Positions 38,137-48,114 of a DNA stretch of 64,000 bases are shown here, piece by piece. The notes below the pieces were generated by a model, which was not told the DNA's origin, did not search any database, and was given only the letters and a program-made list of their open reading frames with translations. This DNA comes from Candidatus Gastranaerophilales bacterium (GTDB lineage: Bacteria > Cyanobacteriota > Vampirovibrionia > Gastranaerophilales > Gastranaerophilaceae), in NCBI GenBank assembly GCA_944326115.1, contig CALVCQ010000003.1, positions 1-64,000 of the forward strand. The letters are read 5' to 3'. The first letter of the stretch is position 1; each line of letters begins with the position of its first letter. Both the position numbers and the translations under genes were made by a program.

Positions 38137-39771
38137 ATGCCGATGAAACATTCTACATATTCTGCAATTATAGTTGGCAGCGGTATAGCGGGTCTTTATG
38201 CAGCCATAAAACTTTCTGAAATCAAAAAACCGGCAGACGGAATTCTTTTATTAACAAAAACTCAGCTTTCCGAATGCAATTCAAGATATGCGCAGGGAGG
38301 CATAGTAGGTGTATTGCCTGAAAACAAGACAGATTCAGTAAGTTTACATGTCGCTGATACAATCAAAGCCGGCTGTGGTTTATGTGATTTTAATGTAGTT
38401 AAATTTATTTCAGAAAACAGCAAATTTGCCATTAAAGACTTGATGAAATATGGTGTAGAGTTTGATCATAACGATAAAAACCAGCTTAATTTTACTCTGG
38501 AAGGTGCTCACAGTGTTAGACGCATACTTCACGTAGGCGGAGATGCAACAGGATACGGTATAGAAAAAGCTCTTGTTGATAAAATTAAAAATGATCCGCA
38601 AATCTCGGCTAATATTTCAATATATGAACAAAACATGGCTGTTGACTTGCTCGTTGATTCCAAAAATAAATGCAGGGGGGTTATTACATTCAACAACCTG
38701 ACCAGAGAATATGAATCTGTATATGCACCAGTGACGATTCTTGCAACAGGCGGTACAGGACAAATTTTCAAATATACAACAAATCCTTCAGTGACAACGG
38801 GTGACGGCATAGCTATTGCTGAAAGAGCTAATGCAAAAATTAAAGATATGGAATTTATTCAATTTCATCCGACTGCGCTTGCTATAGAAAATAATGATTC
38901 CAGATTTTTGATATCAGAATCAGTCAGAGGTGAAGGTGCAAAACTGGTTAATGACAAAGGCGAATATTTTATGTCAAATTTCCCGCAAAAAGATTTGTCA
39001 CCAAGAGATGTTGTTGCCAGAGAAATATACAGCCAGCTTTCAATGGGAAATAAGGTATATCTGGATACAACAAAGATTGATACAGTAACTTTTAAGCATA
39101 GATTCCCCAATATTTACAAAACGTGTTTAGAAAACGGAATTGATATATCAAAAGATTTTATTCCTGTAGCACCGGCTGCTCATTACTGTATGGGTGGAAT
39201 TAAAACAGAAGTCAACGGTCAAACATCTATTGAAAATTTATTTGCGATAGGAGAAGCAGCATGTACATCATTACACGGTGCTAACAGACTGGCAAGTAAT
39301 TCTCTGTTAGAGTGCGTTGTAACAGCTTATGAGCTTGTTAATACACTTCTAAAACTAGATTTACAACCTTCACAAATTATTGATGAAACTATAATGAATA
39401 CAATAAAAAAATACACTGTTGAGAGTGAACCGGTTGAACAAACTTTTTATAATGCACTTATTACAAAGCTTAAGACTACTATGTGGGATCATGTAGGAAT
39501 TGTGAGAACAGAAGAATCATTACTGAATGCATTATCTAATATTAAAAAAATTGAATCAGACTTTAACTGCAAAGACAAATGCAATAGTTTGAATGAATAT
39601 GAGTTACGCAACATGATAATTGTTGCAAAGTTAATAATTAATGCTTCGCTGAGCAGAAAAGAGTCAATTGGTGCACATTTTAGGGCGGATAATAAAGAAT
39701 TTTCCGCAAAAGATGAAAATAACACATTCTTGCCTGAGGATTTATCAGATGGGTCAAAAATTACTGCATGA
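38137..39771 (+). CDS. nadB: L-aspartate oxidase
   Basis: NadB oxidises L-aspartate to iminoaspartate in de novo NAD synthesis. The 544 residues show the FAD dinucleotide motif AIIVGSGIAGLYAA near the N-terminus, SRYAQGGIVGV, the active-site region EFIQFHPTAL, SESVRGEGAKLVND and GGIKTEVNGQTSIENLFAIGE with LHGANRLASNSLLE. The C-terminal helical domain is present. It leads a coupled operon with nadC and the two ETF genes. NadA is not in this window. Confidence 0.96.
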   Translation: MPMKHSTYSAIIVGSGIAGLYAAIKLSEIKKPADGILLLTKTQLSECNSRYAQGGIVGVLPENKTDSVSLHVADTIKAGCGLCDFNVVKFISENSKFAIKDLMKYGVEFDHNDKNQLNFTLEGAHSVRRILHVGGDATGYGIEKALVDKIKNDPQISANISIYEQNMAVDLLVDSKNKCRGVITFNNLTREYESVYAPVTILATGGTGQIFKYTTNPSVTTGDGIAIAERANAKIKDMEFIQFHPTALAIENNDSRFLISESVRGEGAKLVNDKGEYFMSNFPQKDLSPRDVVAREIYSQLSMGNKVYLDTTKIDTVTFKHRFPNIYKTCLENGIDISKDFIPVAPAAHYCMGGIKTEVNGQTSIENLFAIGEAACTSLHGANRLASNSLLECVVTAYELVNTLLKLDLQPSQIIDETIMNTIKKYTVESEPVEQTFYNALITKLKTTMWDHVGIVRTEESLLNALSNIKKIESDFNCKDKCNSLNEYELRNMIIVAKLIINASLSRKESIGAHFRADNKEFSAKDENNTFLPEDLSDGSKITA

Positions 39772-40594
39772 TTTTCTTATAGAAGAGCATATTAAACATT
39801 CACTAAAAGAAGATATCGGTTTTGGAGATATTACCACTGATTTTCTTTATACGGATGACGACATTATTGAAGCGAATTTAAATACACGCTGCGATGCAGT
39901 AGTGTGCGGCTTAAATATTTTCAAAAAAACTTTCGATATATTGTCAAATGAAGTAAATACAATTTTTAATTGCTGTGATGGCGATATTATTGAAAAGGGA
40001 ACTACAATTGCAACGGTAAAAGGACCTGCAAGAGCAATATTGACAGGTGAGAGAACCGCTTTAAATTATATACAGAGAATGTCCGGAATTGCAACGGAAA
40101 CACGAAAATACCAGAATGCAATTAAGCCTTATAGTGCATTTGTTACAGACACTCGCAAAAATACACCGGGATTTAGAATGTTTGAAAAATATGCAGTAAT
40201 GATTGGCGGGGCAAAGCTGCACAGATTCAATCTCAGTGACTGTGTCATGCTTAAAGACAACCACATTAAACATGCAGGTTCATTAACTTTAGCTGTAAAT
40301 AAAATAAGAGAAAATACATCTCATACTCACAAAATCGAAGTCGAATGCGACACAGTAGAGCAGGTAAAAGAAGCATTAGAAGCGAGATGTGATATCATCA
40401 TGCTTGATAACATGTCTATTAACGATATGAAAAAATGTGTTAATTTGATTAACCATAAGGCTATTGTGGAAGCAAGCGGGAATGTTAAAATTGAAACAAT
40501 AAATGAAATTGCATCGACTGGAGTGGATGTAATTTCTACCAGTGCAATAGTTGCACAGGCTCCTGTATTAGATTTTGGATTGGATATGATTTAA
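39749..40594 (+). CDS. nadC: Nicotinate-nucleotide pyrophosphorylase (quinolinate phosphoribosyltransferase)
   Basis: NadC converts quinolinate and PRPP to nicotinate mononucleotide. From ATG 39749 (281 residues) it has the typical start, then KEDIGFGDITTD. Active-site motifs are ERTALNYIQRMSGIAT, DTRKNTPGFR (usually DTRKTTPGLR), GGAKLHRFNLSD, MLKDNHI and VEASGNV. GAGGA inside nadB is the ribosome binding site; the 39668 start would add unrelated residues. It overlaps nadB by 23 bases and its TAA overlaps the etfB ATG. Confidence 0.96.
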   Translation: MGQKLLHDFLIEEHIKHSLKEDIGFGDITTDFLYTDDDIIEANLNTRCDAVVCGLNIFKKTFDILSNEVNTIFNCCDGDIIEKGTTIATVKGPARAILTGERTALNYIQRMSGIATETRKYQNAIKPYSAFVTDTRKNTPGFRMFEKYAVMIGGAKLHRFNLSDCVMLKDNHIKHAGSLTLAVNKIRENTSHTHKIEVECDTVEQVKEALEARCDIIMLDNMSINDMKKCVNLINHKAIVEASGNVKIETINEIASTGVDVISTSAIVAQAPVLDFGLDMI

Positions 40595-41388
40595 TGACTT
40601 TCTCTATTGTTGTTTGTATAAAACAGGTACCGGATACAAATGATATCAGATGGACAGAAAATAATACTATCCAGCGTGATGGTCTTGATTCAATCATCAA
40701 TCCTTATGATATCGGCGCAATACAATTTGCACTCGATATAAAAAAAATATTGAAAGACACTAAAATATTCGCTGTTACGATGGGTCCTGAGCAAGCAAAA
40801 GATATATTAAAAGAAGCGCTTGCCATGGGCTGCGACTTTGGCTGTTTGTTGTCGGATAAGAAATTTTCAGGTGCTGATACTCTGGCAACAGCCTATACAT
40901 TATCGCAATTTATTAAGACAAAAATTCCGGATTTTAAACTGGTTATTTGCGGACAGCAGGCTGTTGACGGCGATACAGCACAAACACCGTCAAGCATGGC
41001 TGAAAAGTTAGATTTGCCGCAAATAACAAATGTTGTTGCTCTAAAAACAATAACCGATAACAGTTCTGTGTGGATTAGAGAAACTGACAGGCTAAAACAA
41101 GAGATTGAAATTACACATCCGGCTTTAATTGCTTCTTCAAATCCTGATGTAGAGATTATACCGGACATAGCCGGTTATATATCAGCTCAAAATAAAGATA
41201 TTAAAGTTTATGATTCAGCGTCATTTGATTGTGACGTTGAAAGAATAGGTCTAAAAGGTTCCCCAACACAGGTAAAACGAGCTTTTAGATATCTTATATC
41301 ACGTGACAGCAAGCTAATAGATAAGTCTACACCTGAATCTGCTGCAGACTTAATAAAACATGAAATTGAACAAATCAGGAATATATAA
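40594..41388 (+). CDS. etfB: Electron transfer flavoprotein, beta subunit
   Basis: EtfB, with EtfA, moves electrons between flavin dehydrogenases and quinone or ferredoxin pathways. The 264 residues start IVVCIKQVPDTNDIRW and contain DTKIFAVTMGP, ADTLATAYTLSQF, VICGQQAVDGDTAQTPSSMAEKL and TPESAADLI. It overlaps nadC by one base (TAATG) and etfA likewise. No acyl-CoA dehydrogenase or bifurcating partner is nearby, so its electron source is unknown. Its place in a nad operon is unusual. Confidence 0.94.
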   Translation: MTFSIVVCIKQVPDTNDIRWTENNTIQRDGLDSIINPYDIGAIQFALDIKKILKDTKIFAVTMGPEQAKDILKEALAMGCDFGCLLSDKKFSGADTLATAYTLSQFIKTKIPDFKLVICGQQAVDGDTAQTPSSMAEKLDLPQITNVVALKTITDNSSVWIRETDRLKQEIEITHPALIASSNPDVEIIPDIAGYISAQNKDIKVYDSASFDCDVERIGLKGSPTQVKRAFRYLISRDSKLIDKSTPESAADLIKHEIEQIRNI

Positions 41389-42356
41389 TGAACAAAAACA
41401 TTCTGGTATATATTGAAATTACCGATAATAAGATTGAAAATGTAACCGGAGAAATAATTTCTTATTTACATCAAAATTTTAATGACTGCAATATAAATGG
41501 ATTATTGCTTACTGATAATAGTACATATAATTCTGTCAAAAATGATTTAAAAAAACTTAATATAGATAAACTTTATGTTATAAAAAATGATAATTTTAAT
41601 AGGTTTGAAACCTGTATTTTTGCATCACAAATTGCTGATTTCATAGAAAATAATCAAGTTGACATTTTTTTAGCAGGTGCAACTCAAAACGGCAGAGATC
41701 TTGCGCCCAGAGTTGCATCTAAACTTAATATTGGACTTACTGCTGATTGTACAGAATTAAATATCGATGAAAACGCTAAACTGCTTGCAACAAGACCTAC
41801 TTACGGCGGTAAGATGATGGCTGCAATATATTCAAAAACAAGACCTGATTTTGCTACTGTGCGTCCGGGTGCTTTTAAAATCGAGCGCATGCAGACTAAA
41901 GAGACTGAAATAGTTGAAATAAATTCTAATCTGTGTAACTTAAATCAATCAGTAAATATAATAACAACAATGAATAAGGCATTAAATGATAGGTTCGACT
42001 CTGCTGATATAATAATAGCCGGCGGACTCGGTCTTCAGACAAAAGATAATTTCGATTTGATATACAAATTTTCACAACTGATAGATGCCGCACCTGCTGC
42101 ATCCAGAGGAGCAGTTGAACGGGGATGGGCACCAAAATCAATTCAAATAGGACAAACGGGTAAATCCGTATCACCCAAAATTTACATTGCATTTGGTATA
42201 TCAGGAGCAATGCAGCATCTTGTCGGCATAAGCAATTCAAACAAAATAATTGCGGTTAATACTGATATAAATGCTCCGATAATGCAATCCGCCGATATGG
42301 CTGTGATTGCTGATGCAGCAGGTGTATTAAACAGTCTGCTTGACAAATATAGTTAA
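41388..42356 (+). CDS. etfA: Electron transfer flavoprotein, alpha subunit
   Basis: EtfA carries the FAD of the ETF heterodimer. The 322 residues include the N-terminal domain (ILVYIEITDNKI) and the C-terminal FAD-binding signature: ADIIIAGGLGLQTKDNFDLI, PAASRGAVERGWAP, IQIGQTGKSVSPKIYIAFGISGAMQHLVG and NTDINAPIMQSADMAVIADA. All FAD-contacting landmarks look intact. It ends four bases inside the converging LuxR-type regulator gene. Confidence 0.95.
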   Translation: MNKNILVYIEITDNKIENVTGEIISYLHQNFNDCNINGLLLTDNSTYNSVKNDLKKLNIDKLYVIKNDNFNRFETCIFASQIADFIENNQVDIFLAGATQNGRDLAPRVASKLNIGLTADCTELNIDENAKLLATRPTYGGKMMAAIYSKTRPDFATVRPGAFKIERMQTKETEIVEINSNLCNLNQSVNIITTMNKALNDRFDSADIIIAGGLGLQTKDNFDLIYKFSQLIDAAPAASRGAVERGWAPKSIQIGQTGKSVSPKIYIAFGISGAMQHLVGISNSNKIIAVNTDINAPIMQSADMAVIADAAGVLNSLLDKYS

Positions 42357-43208: not shown

Positions 43209-43640
43209 CTAAACCTTGCTATAAGCATCAATATAAACCGGGCTGTCTTTAAAGCTGGTCGGGTCAACTACTTCACCGGATTTAAATCTTTCTATATCAT
43301 CGCTTGTGATTTTGCCGTTATTGTCTGTATCGAGCCAAGCAAGGAGCAATTCAGGTGTAACTTTATATTGACCGTCTACAATATTAGATATTGCATAAAA
43401 TATTGCAGCGTCGAAATTACCATTATCATTCACAAATAAACTTGCAATTGCGCCATTGTTATCAAAAGAATTTTTTATTTCTTCAAATGTTATATATCCG
43501 TCATTATCTGAATCCATTTCATCTGATATCATGTCCCGGGTTATTTTTTTCTGTGCACTGACTAAAACTTCATCAGATAAAGCTAGTGAATTCAACTCAT
43601 CAAAGAATGAACCATCGCCGTTTTTATCAAGCTTCGACAG
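43209..43640 (-). CDS. Calmodulin-like EF-hand protein, 5' end uncertain
   Basis: Three clear EF-hand loops are visible: DKNGDGSFFDEL before the TTG at 43595, then DSDNDGYITFEEI and DTDNNGKITSDDIERF, with a degenerate fourth (VNDNGNFDAAI). Four hands in two pairs fit a calmodulin-like protein. The frame is open upstream from TTG 43595 to a TAA at 43656-43658, but no ATG or GTG is found there. CTG 43640 is the earliest codon that might start it. The missing start suggests either an unusual initiation codon or a truncated copy. There is no signal peptide in view. Confidence 0.6.
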   Translation of the reverse strand: MSKLDKNGDGSFFDELNSLALSDEVLVSAQKKITRDMISDEMDSDNDGYITFEEIKNSFDNNGAIASLFVNDNGNFDAAIFYAISNIVDGQYKVTPELLLAWLDTDNNGKITSDDIERFKSGEVVDPTSFKDSPVYIDAYSKV

Positions 43641-43825: not shown

Positions 43826-44914
43826 ATGGGGGAAATTGTTATAAACGATTCAATTAAGTTTTCATTTACTAAAGACCGCTCTGTTGGTTTATACAATGAG
43901 GTTGTTCATGACGTTTACCACTCGGTTTTCGGTGCAAAAACCGAGGCAGAAGAAAAATTCATAAAGCCGCTTAATTTAAAAAAGAATTTTCTGCAAAAAA
44001 AACAAATAAAAGTTCTCGATATCTGCTATGGAATTGGGTATAACACAAAAGCATTTTTAAATGAAATTTTGAATTTAAAATATAACGGACTAATCTGCAT
44101 AGACGCACTGGAATACGATAAAAATCTTGTATTGATGTCACCTTTTTTAAAAGATGGGTATTTTAAAACTTACCCGGAAATATCTTTTTTGCTATTTAAA
44201 TCTTTAGCAGATGAGCTTTTATACTCTAGAGACTCATTTATTGACCGTACTGATTACAAGAGTATTGAAAAATACGTCGCACCATTTTACAAGCGTTTTT
44301 TAGAAGCATATTTTTATCGTGGCTATGTTTATATACCTGATAGGCAAATAAACGCCTTCTTACATAATATATATTATCATTATATATCGCAACGCAACAA
44401 AATCGGTTGTAGACTACTAAAAAATGGCTATTTTACATTTAATTACTATTTTGATGATGCAAGGCTTACTGTTAAAAGCATGGATAATGAGTACGATATT
44501 ATCTTTTTAGATGCATTTACCCCTGCAAAATTACCTACATTATGGTCCCTAGACTTTATCCGAGAACTGCACAGGATTTCTTCAAATGATTGTTTGCTTG
44601 TAACATATTCCAATTCTGCTGCCGTAAGACACTCAATGCTCGAGGCAGGGTATGCTGTCGGCAAAATTTTTGACAGAGAAGGACGTGCAAGCGGAACAAT
44701 TGCTTCAAAAAATTCATCGCTTATTTTAAACAAACTTAATGACTATGACACGGGACTTATAAAAACATCAGCCGGAGTATATTATAGAGACAATAATTTA
44801 TCTAAAACTGCCGATGAAATATTATATGAGCATGAGAAAAGAAAATTGTCCTTAAATCTTGAATCAACAAGTCGGTATATAAAAAAACACAAAAAGGAGC
44901 ATAAACATGCCTGA
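43826..44914 (+). CDS. mnmD: MnmD-type tRNA wobble-uridine methyltransferase
   Basis: This 362-residue protein matches the Methyltransf_30/MnmD group, which methylates nm5s2U34 in tRNA. The core begins near residue 14 (FTKDRSVGLYNEVVHDVYHSVFGA), then the SAM motif VLDICYGIGYNT, and the family hallmark IIFLDAFTPAKLPTLWSLDF. A later part has LLVTYSNSAAVRHSMLEAGYAVGK. It lacks the oxidoreductase domain of fused MnmC. The next gene, overlapping it by eight bases, encodes an FAD oxidoreductase. An insertion of about 100 residues lies between the SAM and hallmark motifs. It opens a five-gene operon with the riboflavin genes. Confidence 0.87.
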   Translation: MGEIVINDSIKFSFTKDRSVGLYNEVVHDVYHSVFGAKTEAEEKFIKPLNLKKNFLQKKQIKVLDICYGIGYNTKAFLNEILNLKYNGLICIDALEYDKNLVLMSPFLKDGYFKTYPEISFLLFKSLADELLYSRDSFIDRTDYKSIEKYVAPFYKRFLEAYFYRGYVYIPDRQINAFLHNIYYHYISQRNKIGCRLLKNGYFTFNYYFDDARLTVKSMDNEYDIIFLDAFTPAKLPTLWSLDFIRELHRISSNDCLLVTYSNSAAVRHSMLEAGYAVGKIFDREGRASGTIASKNSSLILNKLNDYDTGLIKTSAGVYYRDNNLSKTADEILYEHEKRKLSLNLESTSRYIKKHKKEHKHA

Positions 44915-46175
44915 TTATGATTTAGTTGTTTGCGGTGGCGGAACCGCAGGTTCTGCAGCAGGATATATTGCAGCAAAAAAAGGCTTAAAAACGTTAATTG
45001 TTGAAAAGAATATACATCTTGGCGGCTCAATTACGTCTGCGCTTGTGATACCGTCAATGAAATCAAATACTAAAAATATTAATTGCGAATTCTATAACGA
45101 TTTAATAAAGGAATTAAGATTATTTGGAGGGCAAACAACTTACGGGGATGGAAATCAAGGGTGGTTTAACCCTGAACTCACAAAAATTGCATTAGATTCA
45201 CTAATGCAAAAAGCAGGGTGTGATGTATTGTACGATTGTGAAATTACCGATGCAGTAAAAGAGAGAAATCATGTAAAATCCATTAAAATTTCTTCAAAAA
45301 TGTTATCATTATATATCGAATCGTCATATTTTTTAGATGCGACAGGCGATGGAAATTTATCATTTATTTTAAATAATAAAATTTTAGAAAATAAATTTAA
45401 CAGACAACCGATGACACTGAGATTTCATGTGTCGGGAGTAGATATGAAGAAATTTTCTTCGTGGCTTCTTAATTTTGATAATAATCGTGAAGTTACAACA
45501 TCTTACAAAAAAGACGGACAAATTCATTTGTCTACTGCTTGCACATGGGATACAAATCGCAGCTGGGCATTAAGACCTCTGTTCGAGGATGCAATCAAAG
45601 CGGGTGTACTCGAAGATGAAGACAGCTCATATTTTCAGCTTTTTACCATTCCAGCAATGCCAGACACGGTATCATTAAATTGTCCTAGAATCTTGCTGGA
45701 TAAGGATATCGACCCTTTGGATATATATAAAAAGTCTATAGTTCTTCAAAAAGCCAGGAGACAGATCTGGCGTTTGTATAATTTTATGAAATCCTACTTT
45801 CCCGGTTTTGAACATTCTTATATTTCAAACATTGCAGATATGATTGGTGTTCGTGAATCCAGACGAATTCAAGGTAAGAAAATATACACAAAAGAGGACA
45901 TTTTAAGCGGCAAAAGATATAAAAATCCTGTACTTCATGCAGATTATCCAATTGATATACATTCGTACAAAAAAGATTCATCAACTTTAGAACACACAAA
46001 AGTTGATTATGAATTACCTGTAGAGTGCCTTAAATCTTTGGATTTTGAAAATTTATATATTGCCGGCAGAAATATTTCCGCAGATTTTAGTGCACAGGCT
46101 GCATTACGTATACAAACATCATGTTTTTCCATGGGTGAAGCTGTAGCCAAAGATATTGCAAATATTTTAATGTGA
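44907..46175 (+). CDS. FAD-dependent oxidoreductase (PF12831-like)
   Basis: This 422-residue flavoprotein has the Rossmann FAD motif DLVVCGGGTAGSAAGYIAAKKG with LIVEKN at the end of the second strand. Then come GGSITSALVIPSMK, a second FAD-contact FLDATGDGNLSF and the C-terminal LYIAGRNISADFSAQAALR. It has no signal peptide. Its ATG overlaps the mnmD stop (8 bases), with AAGGAG as ribosome binding site. I infer a role beside MnmD in wobble-uridine modification, but most family members act on other substrates, so this is only a hypothesis. Confidence 0.85.
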   Translation: MPDYDLVVCGGGTAGSAAGYIAAKKGLKTLIVEKNIHLGGSITSALVIPSMKSNTKNINCEFYNDLIKELRLFGGQTTYGDGNQGWFNPELTKIALDSLMQKAGCDVLYDCEITDAVKERNHVKSIKISSKMLSLYIESSYFLDATGDGNLSFILNNKILENKFNRQPMTLRFHVSGVDMKKFSSWLLNFDNNREVTTSYKKDGQIHLSTACTWDTNRSWALRPLFEDAIKAGVLEDEDSSYFQLFTIPAMPDTVSLNCPRILLDKDIDPLDIYKKSIVLQKARRQIWRLYNFMKSYFPGFEHSYISNIADMIGVRESRRIQGKKIYTKEDILSGKRYKNPVLHADYPIDIHSYKKDSSTLEHTKVDYELPVECLKSLDFENLYIAGRNISADFSAQAALRIQTSCFSMGEAVAKDIANILM

Positions 46176-46195: not shown

Positions 46196-46846
46196 ATGTT
46201 TACAGGACTTATAGAAGAAACAGGCAAAGTAATCGATATACAAAAAACAGCAGAAACATTGTATATATCAATACAGTGCTCAGATGTTTTAAACGGGTTA
46301 AGAATAGGTGACAGTATTGCCGTAAACGGTGCTTGTCAGACTGTTATTGAAATGAATAATGATTCATTTAAAGTTTTTGCATCATCGGAAACATTAAAAA
46401 TAACTAATTTTAACATTCTGAAAGCAGGCGACATAGTAAATCTGGAAAGAGCATTAAAACTTTCTGACAGACTCGACGGGCATCTGGTTACCGGTCATAT
46501 TGATTCTACAGGAATATTAAAAAATATCGATATGAATGGTGATAATATCACAATAACAGTAGATGTAAATTCAGCAATTGCCGGACAGATTGTAAAAAAA
46601 GGTTCAGTAGCACTAAACGGAATAAGCTTAACTGTATCTGACATATTAGAAGGATGTTTTAAAGTTGCTATTATTCCTCATACATTTAATAATACAAACT
46701 TGAAATATTTAAAGAGAGGCAGTGTAATAAATATTGAAACAGACATAATAGCAAAATATGTTGAAAAATATTTATTATCGAACAATAATACTAATAAGAC
46801 TTCATCTATAGATATCAAACTACTAGCAGAGAACGGATTTATTTAA
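46196..46846 (+). CDS. ribE: Riboflavin synthase, alpha chain
   Basis: RibE dismutates two lumazine molecules into riboflavin. The 216 residues form two similar beta-barrels: MFTGLIEETGKV...SIAVNGACQTVIE and HLVTGHIDSTG...VALNGISLTVSD. The TGH(I/V)D and VNG(A/I)xxTV motifs occur as expected. The start is 20 bases after the oxidoreductase stop. Its stop overlaps the ribBA start (TAATG). No FMN riboswitch precedes it; the space is too short. Confidence 0.95.
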   Translation: MFTGLIEETGKVIDIQKTAETLYISIQCSDVLNGLRIGDSIAVNGACQTVIEMNNDSFKVFASSETLKITNFNILKAGDIVNLERALKLSDRLDGHLVTGHIDSTGILKNIDMNGDNITITVDVNSAIAGQIVKKGSVALNGISLTVSDILEGCFKVAIIPHTFNNTNLKYLKRGSVINIETDIIAKYVEKYLLSNNNTNKTSSIDIKLLAENGFI

Positions 46847-48114
46847 TGTCATTACTTGGAAACATTAAAGAAGATATTGATAAATTTCATTTTAATACCG
46901 TAGAAGAAGCAATTTATGCTATAAAAAACGGCGGTATGGTTATAGTTGCGGATGATGAATCCCGTGAAAATGAGGGTGATTTAATTTGTGCTGCAGAATA
47001 TGCAACACCCGATAATGTCAATTTTATGATAACCGAGGCAAAAGGTGTGCTTTGCGCTCCCGTCAGCCGGCAAAGAGCAAAGAAACTAGGGCTTGATTTT
47101 ATGGTAAAAAACAATACTGACATAAAAGGCACAGCCTTTACACAGAGTATTGATGCTGACCCTAAATACGGGGTGACAACTGGCGTTTCTGCTTTTGATC
47201 GTTCAATTACTCTAAAATTAATTGCTCAAGATAACATATTACCGTCTGATTTTCGACAACCCGGTCATATTTTTCCTTTAATTTCAAAAGAAGGCGGTGT
47301 GCTGGAGCGTGTGGGGCATACTGAAGCATCAGTTGATTTATGCAGGCTTGCTGGTTTAAAAGACGCTGCAGTCTGTTGCGAAATAGTTAATCCTGACGGT
47401 TCAATGGCACGCAGAGACGATTTGAAAAAGTTTGCAGACAAACATAATATTAAATTTATATCTGTTGCCCAGTTAATTTCATACAGGTTAAAAAATGAAA
47501 AGCTCATGATAAGAGAGGCGGAAGTCAATCTCCCTACTGCTTTTGGAACTTTTAGACTTCTGGGATACAGGCATGCTTTGACAGGACAGGAACATGTAGC
47601 ACTGTTAAAAGACGACGGTTCAGATAAAATTCCGCTTGTAAGAATGCATAGTATTTGTCTCACCGGCGACACATTTCACAGCTTAAGATGTGACTGTAAC
47701 AGTCAGCTGCAAAATTCAATGAGAATGATTGATAAATACGGAAAAGGCGCTGTGGTGTATCTTATGAATCACGAAGGCAGAGGTATCGGGATTGTTAACA
47801 AAATTAAAGCTTATGCTCTTCAGGATCAGGGCGAAGACACAGTTGAAGCTAATTTATCACTTGGCTTTAACTCTGATTTAAGAGATTACGGGGACGGTGC
47901 ACAGATATTGTTGGATTTAGGGTTTAATAAATTTAAGCTCATTACAAATAATCCTCAAAAAATTATAGGTCTTGAGGGATACGGACTTGAAATAATCGAA
48001 CGTGTACAGGTTGAATCAGAATGTACAAAATATAATTACCGTTATCTGTGCACTAAAGCAAATAAAATGCACCACATGCTTGATATAACTAAAATGGAGC
48101 AGACTAATGCCTGA
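46846..48114 (+). CDS. ribBA: Bifunctional DHBP synthase / GTP cyclohydrolase II
   Basis: The N-terminal half (to about residue 215) is 3,4-dihydroxy-2-butanone-4-phosphate synthase: DDESRENEGDLICAAEYATPD and the GHTEASVDLCRLAG site. The C-terminal half is GTP cyclohydrolase II: zinc motif LTGDTFHSLRCDCNSQL, HEGRGIGIVNK and RDYGDGAQIL. Both active sites look complete. The 422 residues match RibBA proteins. RibD and RibH are not in the window. It overlaps the GNAT gene by eight bases. Confidence 0.96.
   Translation: MSLLGNIKEDIDKFHFNTVEEAIYAIKNGGMVIVADDESRENEGDLICAAEYATPDNVNFMITEAKGVLCAPVSRQRAKKLGLDFMVKNNTDIKGTAFTQSIDADPKYGVTTGVSAFDRSITLKLIAQDNILPSDFRQPGHIFPLISKEGGVLERVGHTEASVDLCRLAGLKDAAVCCEIVNPDGSMARRDDLKKFADKHNIKFISVAQLISYRLKNEKLMIREAEVNLPTAFGTFRLLGYRHALTGQEHVALLKDDGSDKIPLVRMHSICLTGDTFHSLRCDCNSQLQNSMRMIDKYGKGAVVYLMNHEGRGIGIVNKIKAYALQDQGEDTVEANLSLGFNSDLRDYGDGAQILLDLGFNKFKLITNNPQKIIGLEGYGLEIIERVQVESECTKYNYRYLCTKANKMHHMLDITKMEQTNA

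Follow-up and report, generated by a model that had tools for sequence, protein, structure and literature searches.

Does a flavoprotein gene that overlaps the gene of a stand-alone tRNA methyltransferase supply the step from cmnm5U to nm5U? The question is raised by a locus in a 64,000-nucleotide stretch of DNA from a Gastranaerophilales bacterium, an uncultured relative of cyanobacteria (hereafter the window; its genome is a draft of 2.15 Mb, made up of 92 contigs), where mnmD runs into the gene of a FAD-dependent oxidoreductase, here called FLAV (Table 1). The original prediction saw in the two a possible split MnmC, with FLAV as a non-homologous replacement for the oxidoreductase.

Table 1. 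Features of the mnmD-FLAV locus (positions in the window)
Feature	Position	Strand	Description
mnmD	43826..44914	+	362 aa; stand-alone MnmC2/DUF752-type tRNA methyltransferase; PF05430, conserved Asp
AAGGAG, ribosome-binding-like site of FLAV	44894..44899	+	within mnmD, 7 bases before FLAV ATG
Overlap of mnmD stop and FLAV start	44907..44914	+	8 bases; from ORF coordinates
FLAV	44907..46175	+	422 aa; PF12831 FAD-dependent oxidoreductase
ribE, riboflavin synthase	46196..46846	+	local neighbour, only in genera g1 and g23 of the loci read
ribBA	46846..48114	+	local neighbour, only in genera g1 and g23 of the loci read

In a Pfam profile search MnmD matched PF05430 (Methyltransf_30) with 78.5 bits (cut-off 22), and its closest sequence in the PDB was the Aquifex MnmC2 (3vyw, E 7.8e-23). 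NF033855 (MNMC2), its best NCBIfam match, scored 96.2 bits and thus missed the equivalog cut-off of 136; by this model MnmD would be a divergent MNMC2 member. Asp229, located in the motif DAFTP..LW, aligns with Asp-178 of E. coli MnmC, and both this residue and the SAM-binding glycine motif (D65-x-C67-x-G69-x-G71-Y72-N73) were unchanged in all 19 sequences of the alignment. As predicted, the methyltransferase is an open reading frame of its own, separate from the oxidoreductase. The size of mnmD products ranges from about 270 to 548 aa (window, L097, L120, L128, L114 and L115), owing to an insertion that separates the SAM-binding from the catalytic half; a short form, apart from FLAV, occurs in genera g17 and g18.

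PF12831 (FAD_oxidored) spans residues 5-414 of FLAV (profile positions 1-391 of 416) with 267.5 bits against a cut-off of 27, while no NCBIfam model scored over its cut-off in the profile search. The glycines of the FAD-binding motif (G10, G11, G12 and G15) were invariant in 23 of 23 sequences. The FLAV profile found nothing in E. coli MnmC, so the earlier statement that the flavoprotein belongs to another family than the oxidoreductase domain MnmC(o) was correct, as was the statement that its gene overlaps mnmD. Since the AAGGAG site lies within mnmD just ahead of the FLAV start, translational coupling of the two genes is likely, judging by this arrangement of the sequence.

The AlphaFold model of FLAV (mean pLDDT 75.5, pTM 0.79, 7 sequences) has a FAD-oxidoreductase fold. 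Its best structural match was a subunit of EtfABCX (Z 20.9, rmsd 3.2, 298 residues aligned); further matches were the geranylgeranyl-reductase-like 3oz2 (Z 20.6, rmsd 3.2, 286 aligned), monomeric sarcosine oxidase (Z 18.6, rmsd 3.7, 294 aligned) and glycine oxidase (Z 18.1, rmsd 3.9, 281 aligned). By structure, MnmC(o) is most closely related to glycine oxidase (PMC3648344). To FLAV, glycine and sarcosine oxidases align over ~278-296 residues, with many other FAD enzymes within ~1-3 Z. Foldseek matches of the model include E. coli MnmG; structures of E. coli MnmC are absent among the 50 structural matches listed, an absence that excludes nothing. The modelled fold is compatible with amine oxidation, but it is common to very many FAD enzymes, and so broad a list of matches gives the superfamily only and no function. 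FLAV lacks a basic pI (27 paired loci, median 5.96; protein of the window, 7.54), and its net charge, taken as a hint of RNA binding, is near neutral. Six relatives of FLAV came from named genomes: four Gastranaerophilales, one uncultured bacterium and one Bacteroidetes.

To what extent the two genes belong together was seen from a survey of 146 Gastranaerophilales genomes. We found mnmD in 134 and FLAV in 142 of them (FLAV at E <1e-20; 144 at E up to 0.001, including two weak matches, in G048 and G016; G028, counted as positive, has just part of FLAV, at the end of a contig). Both genes were present in 133 genomes, and in 112 of these they lie at most 2.8 kb apart, which is more than chance: 107 of the close pairs have both genes on one strand, mnmD leading, and 5 are divergent. 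In the remaining 21 genomes the two genes are on separate contigs; G126 and G116 were scored as non-adjacent although their mnmD and FLAV lie near contig ends. By a hand count from genus labels and gene positions, 20 of the 25 genera of the home family have mnmD and FLAV side by side.

Gene-by-gene reading of 63 FLAV loci from 43 genera, with neighbours counted by locus content, covered 21 home-family genera; in 16 of them mnmD was no more than 3 kb away from FLAV, and the next commonest neighbours were the unannotated cluster c4 (8 genera), the GHMP kinase c5 (7) and a LuxR-type regulator (6). In other genera the pair sits between quite different genes than in g1, and in three g20 genomes mnmD and FLAV are divergent. 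The varied neighbours across genera indicate that the pair is kept while its surroundings change. The original observation is confirmed and reaches further than first described, since a conserved mnmD-FLAV pair, probably coupled, exists in most of a bacterial family. Six loci from several genera (L121, L122, L123, L124, L125 and L127) carry, between mnmD and FLAV, a gene that by eye resembles a type IV pilin (N-terminal FTLAEILI).

The flavin genes noted beside the pair in the original prediction do follow it in the window, but their restriction to two genera among the loci read led us to reject them as the cause of the mnmD-FLAV link. Even in two g1 genomes, G101 and G108, ribE and ribBA were not found within 1.5 kb of the pair. 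In genus g1, etfA is near one side of the pair and ribE near the other. Elsewhere in the window (38137-42356) nadB and nadC overlap and are directly followed by etfB and etfA, and the electron-transfer flavoprotein might serve as electron acceptor of L-aspartate oxidase (nadB). Ahead of mnmD, on the side of the LuxR-type regulator and flanked by these two genes, is a gene for a small EF-hand protein (43209-43595, minus strand).

Counted over all 146 genomes, 133 have both genes, 1 has mnmD only (G016), 9 have FLAV only and 3 have neither. The single mnmD without FLAV is truncated and has an internal stop, so intact mnmD without FLAV was found in none of the 146. Fisher's test gave p 0.0017 for the co-occurrence, a value that ignores kinship and draft gaps, one of which can remove both neighbours; with the same neglect of kinship and gaps, p was 0.003 when only genomes of at least 90% completeness were counted and 3.9e-5 if mnmD of G016 is scored as absent. 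FLAV, on the other hand, was retained in 9 of the 12 genomes without mnmD (6 of 8 among those at least 90% complete). In G048 we searched for the usual neighbour of the pair and found none, so no clean empty site could be demonstrated there.

MnmG scored over its cut-off in 141 of the 146 genomes, and MnmC(o) (TIGR03197) in none; the TIGR03197 matches listed span little beyond the FAD-binding end. MnmM gave weak matches of ~52 residues in 30 of 146 genomes, 3 of them just over the cut-off, and was rejected on this ground as the methylase of the order. The conserved pairing, the presence of MnmG and the absence of MnmC(o) make the idea of a replacement reasonable: FLAV fits the gap, being a flavoprotein with its gene coupled to mnmD, while the order has no MnmC(o). 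In the route that we propose, MnmEG would make cmnm5(s2)U34. FLAV, translated from the overlapping start codon, would most likely act in the same pathway as MnmD and would oxidise the glycine-derived C-N bond of cmnm5(s2)U34 to yield nm5(s2)U34 for MnmD. MnmD, to judge from its family and its conserved catalytic Asp, would convert nm5(s2)U34 to mnm5(s2)U34. In an anaerobe, as Gastranaerophilales would be, FLAV would need an electron acceptor other than O2. The reaction, tRNA as the substrate and the electron acceptor of FLAV are what we infer here.

That FLAV is a non-homologous replacement for the step from cmnm5U to nm5U is our preferred reading, which we hold tentatively, as a good possibility rather than a probable conclusion. 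The original prediction thus stands in part: the lack of MnmC(o) and the conserved pair speak for it, and the FLAV genes kept without mnmD, as well as a near-universal radical-SAM protein, speak against it. Two alternatives are serious.

According to the first of them, which is unlikely in our view and yet deserves weight, this radical-SAM protein (TIGR01212) converts cmnm5U to nm5U for MnmD, and FLAV has its role elsewhere. TIGR01212, which we take to be the family containing MnmL, scored over its cut-off in 142 of 146 genomes, including that of the window (G000:C15:24687-25586; 371.2 bits, cut-off 180). Three Bacilli records show the MnmL-MnmM arrangement, with the gene of a class I methyltransferase directly after that of a TIGR01212 protein, and a review table lists MnmL as an alternative to MnmC (PMC12548931). 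In a 16-row tree, however, the TIGR01212 proteins of the order (such as L136:5658-6599) formed a branch of their own, outside both Bacilli MnmL and E. coli YhcC, so identity with MnmL cannot be asserted. Moreover, mnmD was beside the TIGR01212 gene in 0 of 3 loci from mnmD-bearing genomes (L136, L137 and L138), and a two-by-two count revealed no link between TIGR01212 and mnmD (p 1.0): the 3 genomes without TIGR01212 all have mnmD, though draft gaps could explain these absences.

The second alternative, somewhat less likely still, dispenses with a converting enzyme: MnmEG would make nm5U from ammonium, MnmD would methylate it, and FLAV would be an unrelated operon neighbour. Such a route has been proposed for Aquifex. 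In vivo, E. coli MnmEG accepts both ammonium and glycine, and for its activity the methylase domain of MnmC does not depend on the oxidase domain (PMC3936742). With nm5U formed directly from ammonium, a converting enzyme would strictly be unnecessary. The best solved relative of MnmD, Aquifex MnmC2, is without a fused oxidase, and many members of the phylum have mnmD without FLAV. In a phylum sample that overlaps the order survey, 186 of 214 genomes had mnmD and 105 had FLAV at E up to 1e-20; Synechococcus elongatus, the named control, has PF05430. No mnmD was found beside the FLAV homologues of phylum families f8, f11, f22 and f32, the Bacteroidetes homologue had mnmD neither adjacent nor elsewhere in its genome, and among 80 Bacteroidota genomes, which gave 26 mnmD loci, a FLAV-like gene was absent within ~1.5 kb of mnmD in all of these loci. 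The pairing as a general feature of mnmD was rejected on account of the many phylum members and the 26 Bacteroidota loci without it. What an unrelated neighbour leaves unexplained, however, is the lasting place of FLAV beside mnmD amid changing neighbours. Among the papers that could be searched, none joined Gastranaerophilales with tRNA modification.

The remaining alternative comes from the history of FLAV itself. In a 66-row tree the paired FLAV proteins occupy one region, which suggests from the sequences that the pairing may have arisen once and was later lost, as it is in g17, g18, g22, g24 and g25. The labels of this tree are imperfect (L170, from G032, is labelled ELSE despite adjacent LigB and AMMECR1; L169, from G030, is labelled NEAR though LigB is also there), and L110, L135 and L171 were left out, being either on short contigs or duplicated. 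In the sister families f2-f4 a LigB-type dioxygenase gene adjoins FLAV in 9 loci from 7 genera (L101, L103, L104, L105, L107, L108, L109, L169 and L170), and AMMECR1 is near FLAV in 5 loci of these families, adjoining LigB; the one AMMECR1 protein tested scored over the cut-off of TIGR04335 (AmmeMemoRadiSam protein A). In regularity this link comes close to the one with mnmD. That FLAV belongs to such a LigB/AMMECR1 (AmmeMemoRadiSam-type) pathway and owes its place beside mnmD to a single ancient rearrangement kept by inertia fits one origin of the pairing but is quite improbable, because in none of the 21 home-family genera read did the 3 kb on either side of FLAV hold a LigB-cluster or AMMECR1-cluster gene, and because inertia would have kept other neighbours as well as mnmD, which is not observed. 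Membership of FLAV in an unrelated pathway, which the original prediction had named as counting against it, is not clear, but the LigB/AMMECR1 link is a warning.

We return to FLAV as the replacement. Put in full, that a PF12831 flavoprotein, unlike both MnmC(o) and MnmL, is the cmnm5U-to-nm5U enzyme coupled to a stand-alone MnmC2 is a claim we make slightly more guardedly, as possible and somewhat doubtful. If true, it would be a third solution to this step, and FLAV would be an example of the 'MnmC(o)-like' enzymes that bacteria carrying an orphan mnmC(m) are expected to have. The mnmD-FLAV pair names one concrete, testable candidate gene in an uncultured group.

Among the nearest known systems is E. 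coli MnmC, which joins a FAD domain (MnmC1) to a methylase (MnmC2); its methylase domain is homologous to MnmD, with the equivalent of Asp-178 conserved. As in E. coli, a FAD enzyme is made together with the methylase, but in place of one fused protein there are two genes, the methylase first and then the flavoprotein. FLAV also differs from the E. coli oxidoreductase in being a PF12831 protein; it matches this family over its full length, and the family is broad. The Aquifex aeolicus MnmC2 (DUF752, 3vyw) is, like MnmD, a stand-alone methylase. The MnmL-MnmM system of Bacilli (TIGR01212 radical-SAM protein and class I methylase) is likewise a two-gene route to mnm5U, with converter and methylase in an operon. 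Its enzymes, however, are different, MnmM being not convincingly present in the order and the order's TIGR01212 gene lying elsewhere in the genome. In Gastranaerophilales, the two genes mnmD and FLAV would together be the non-orthologous equivalent of the single bifunctional MnmC of E. coli.
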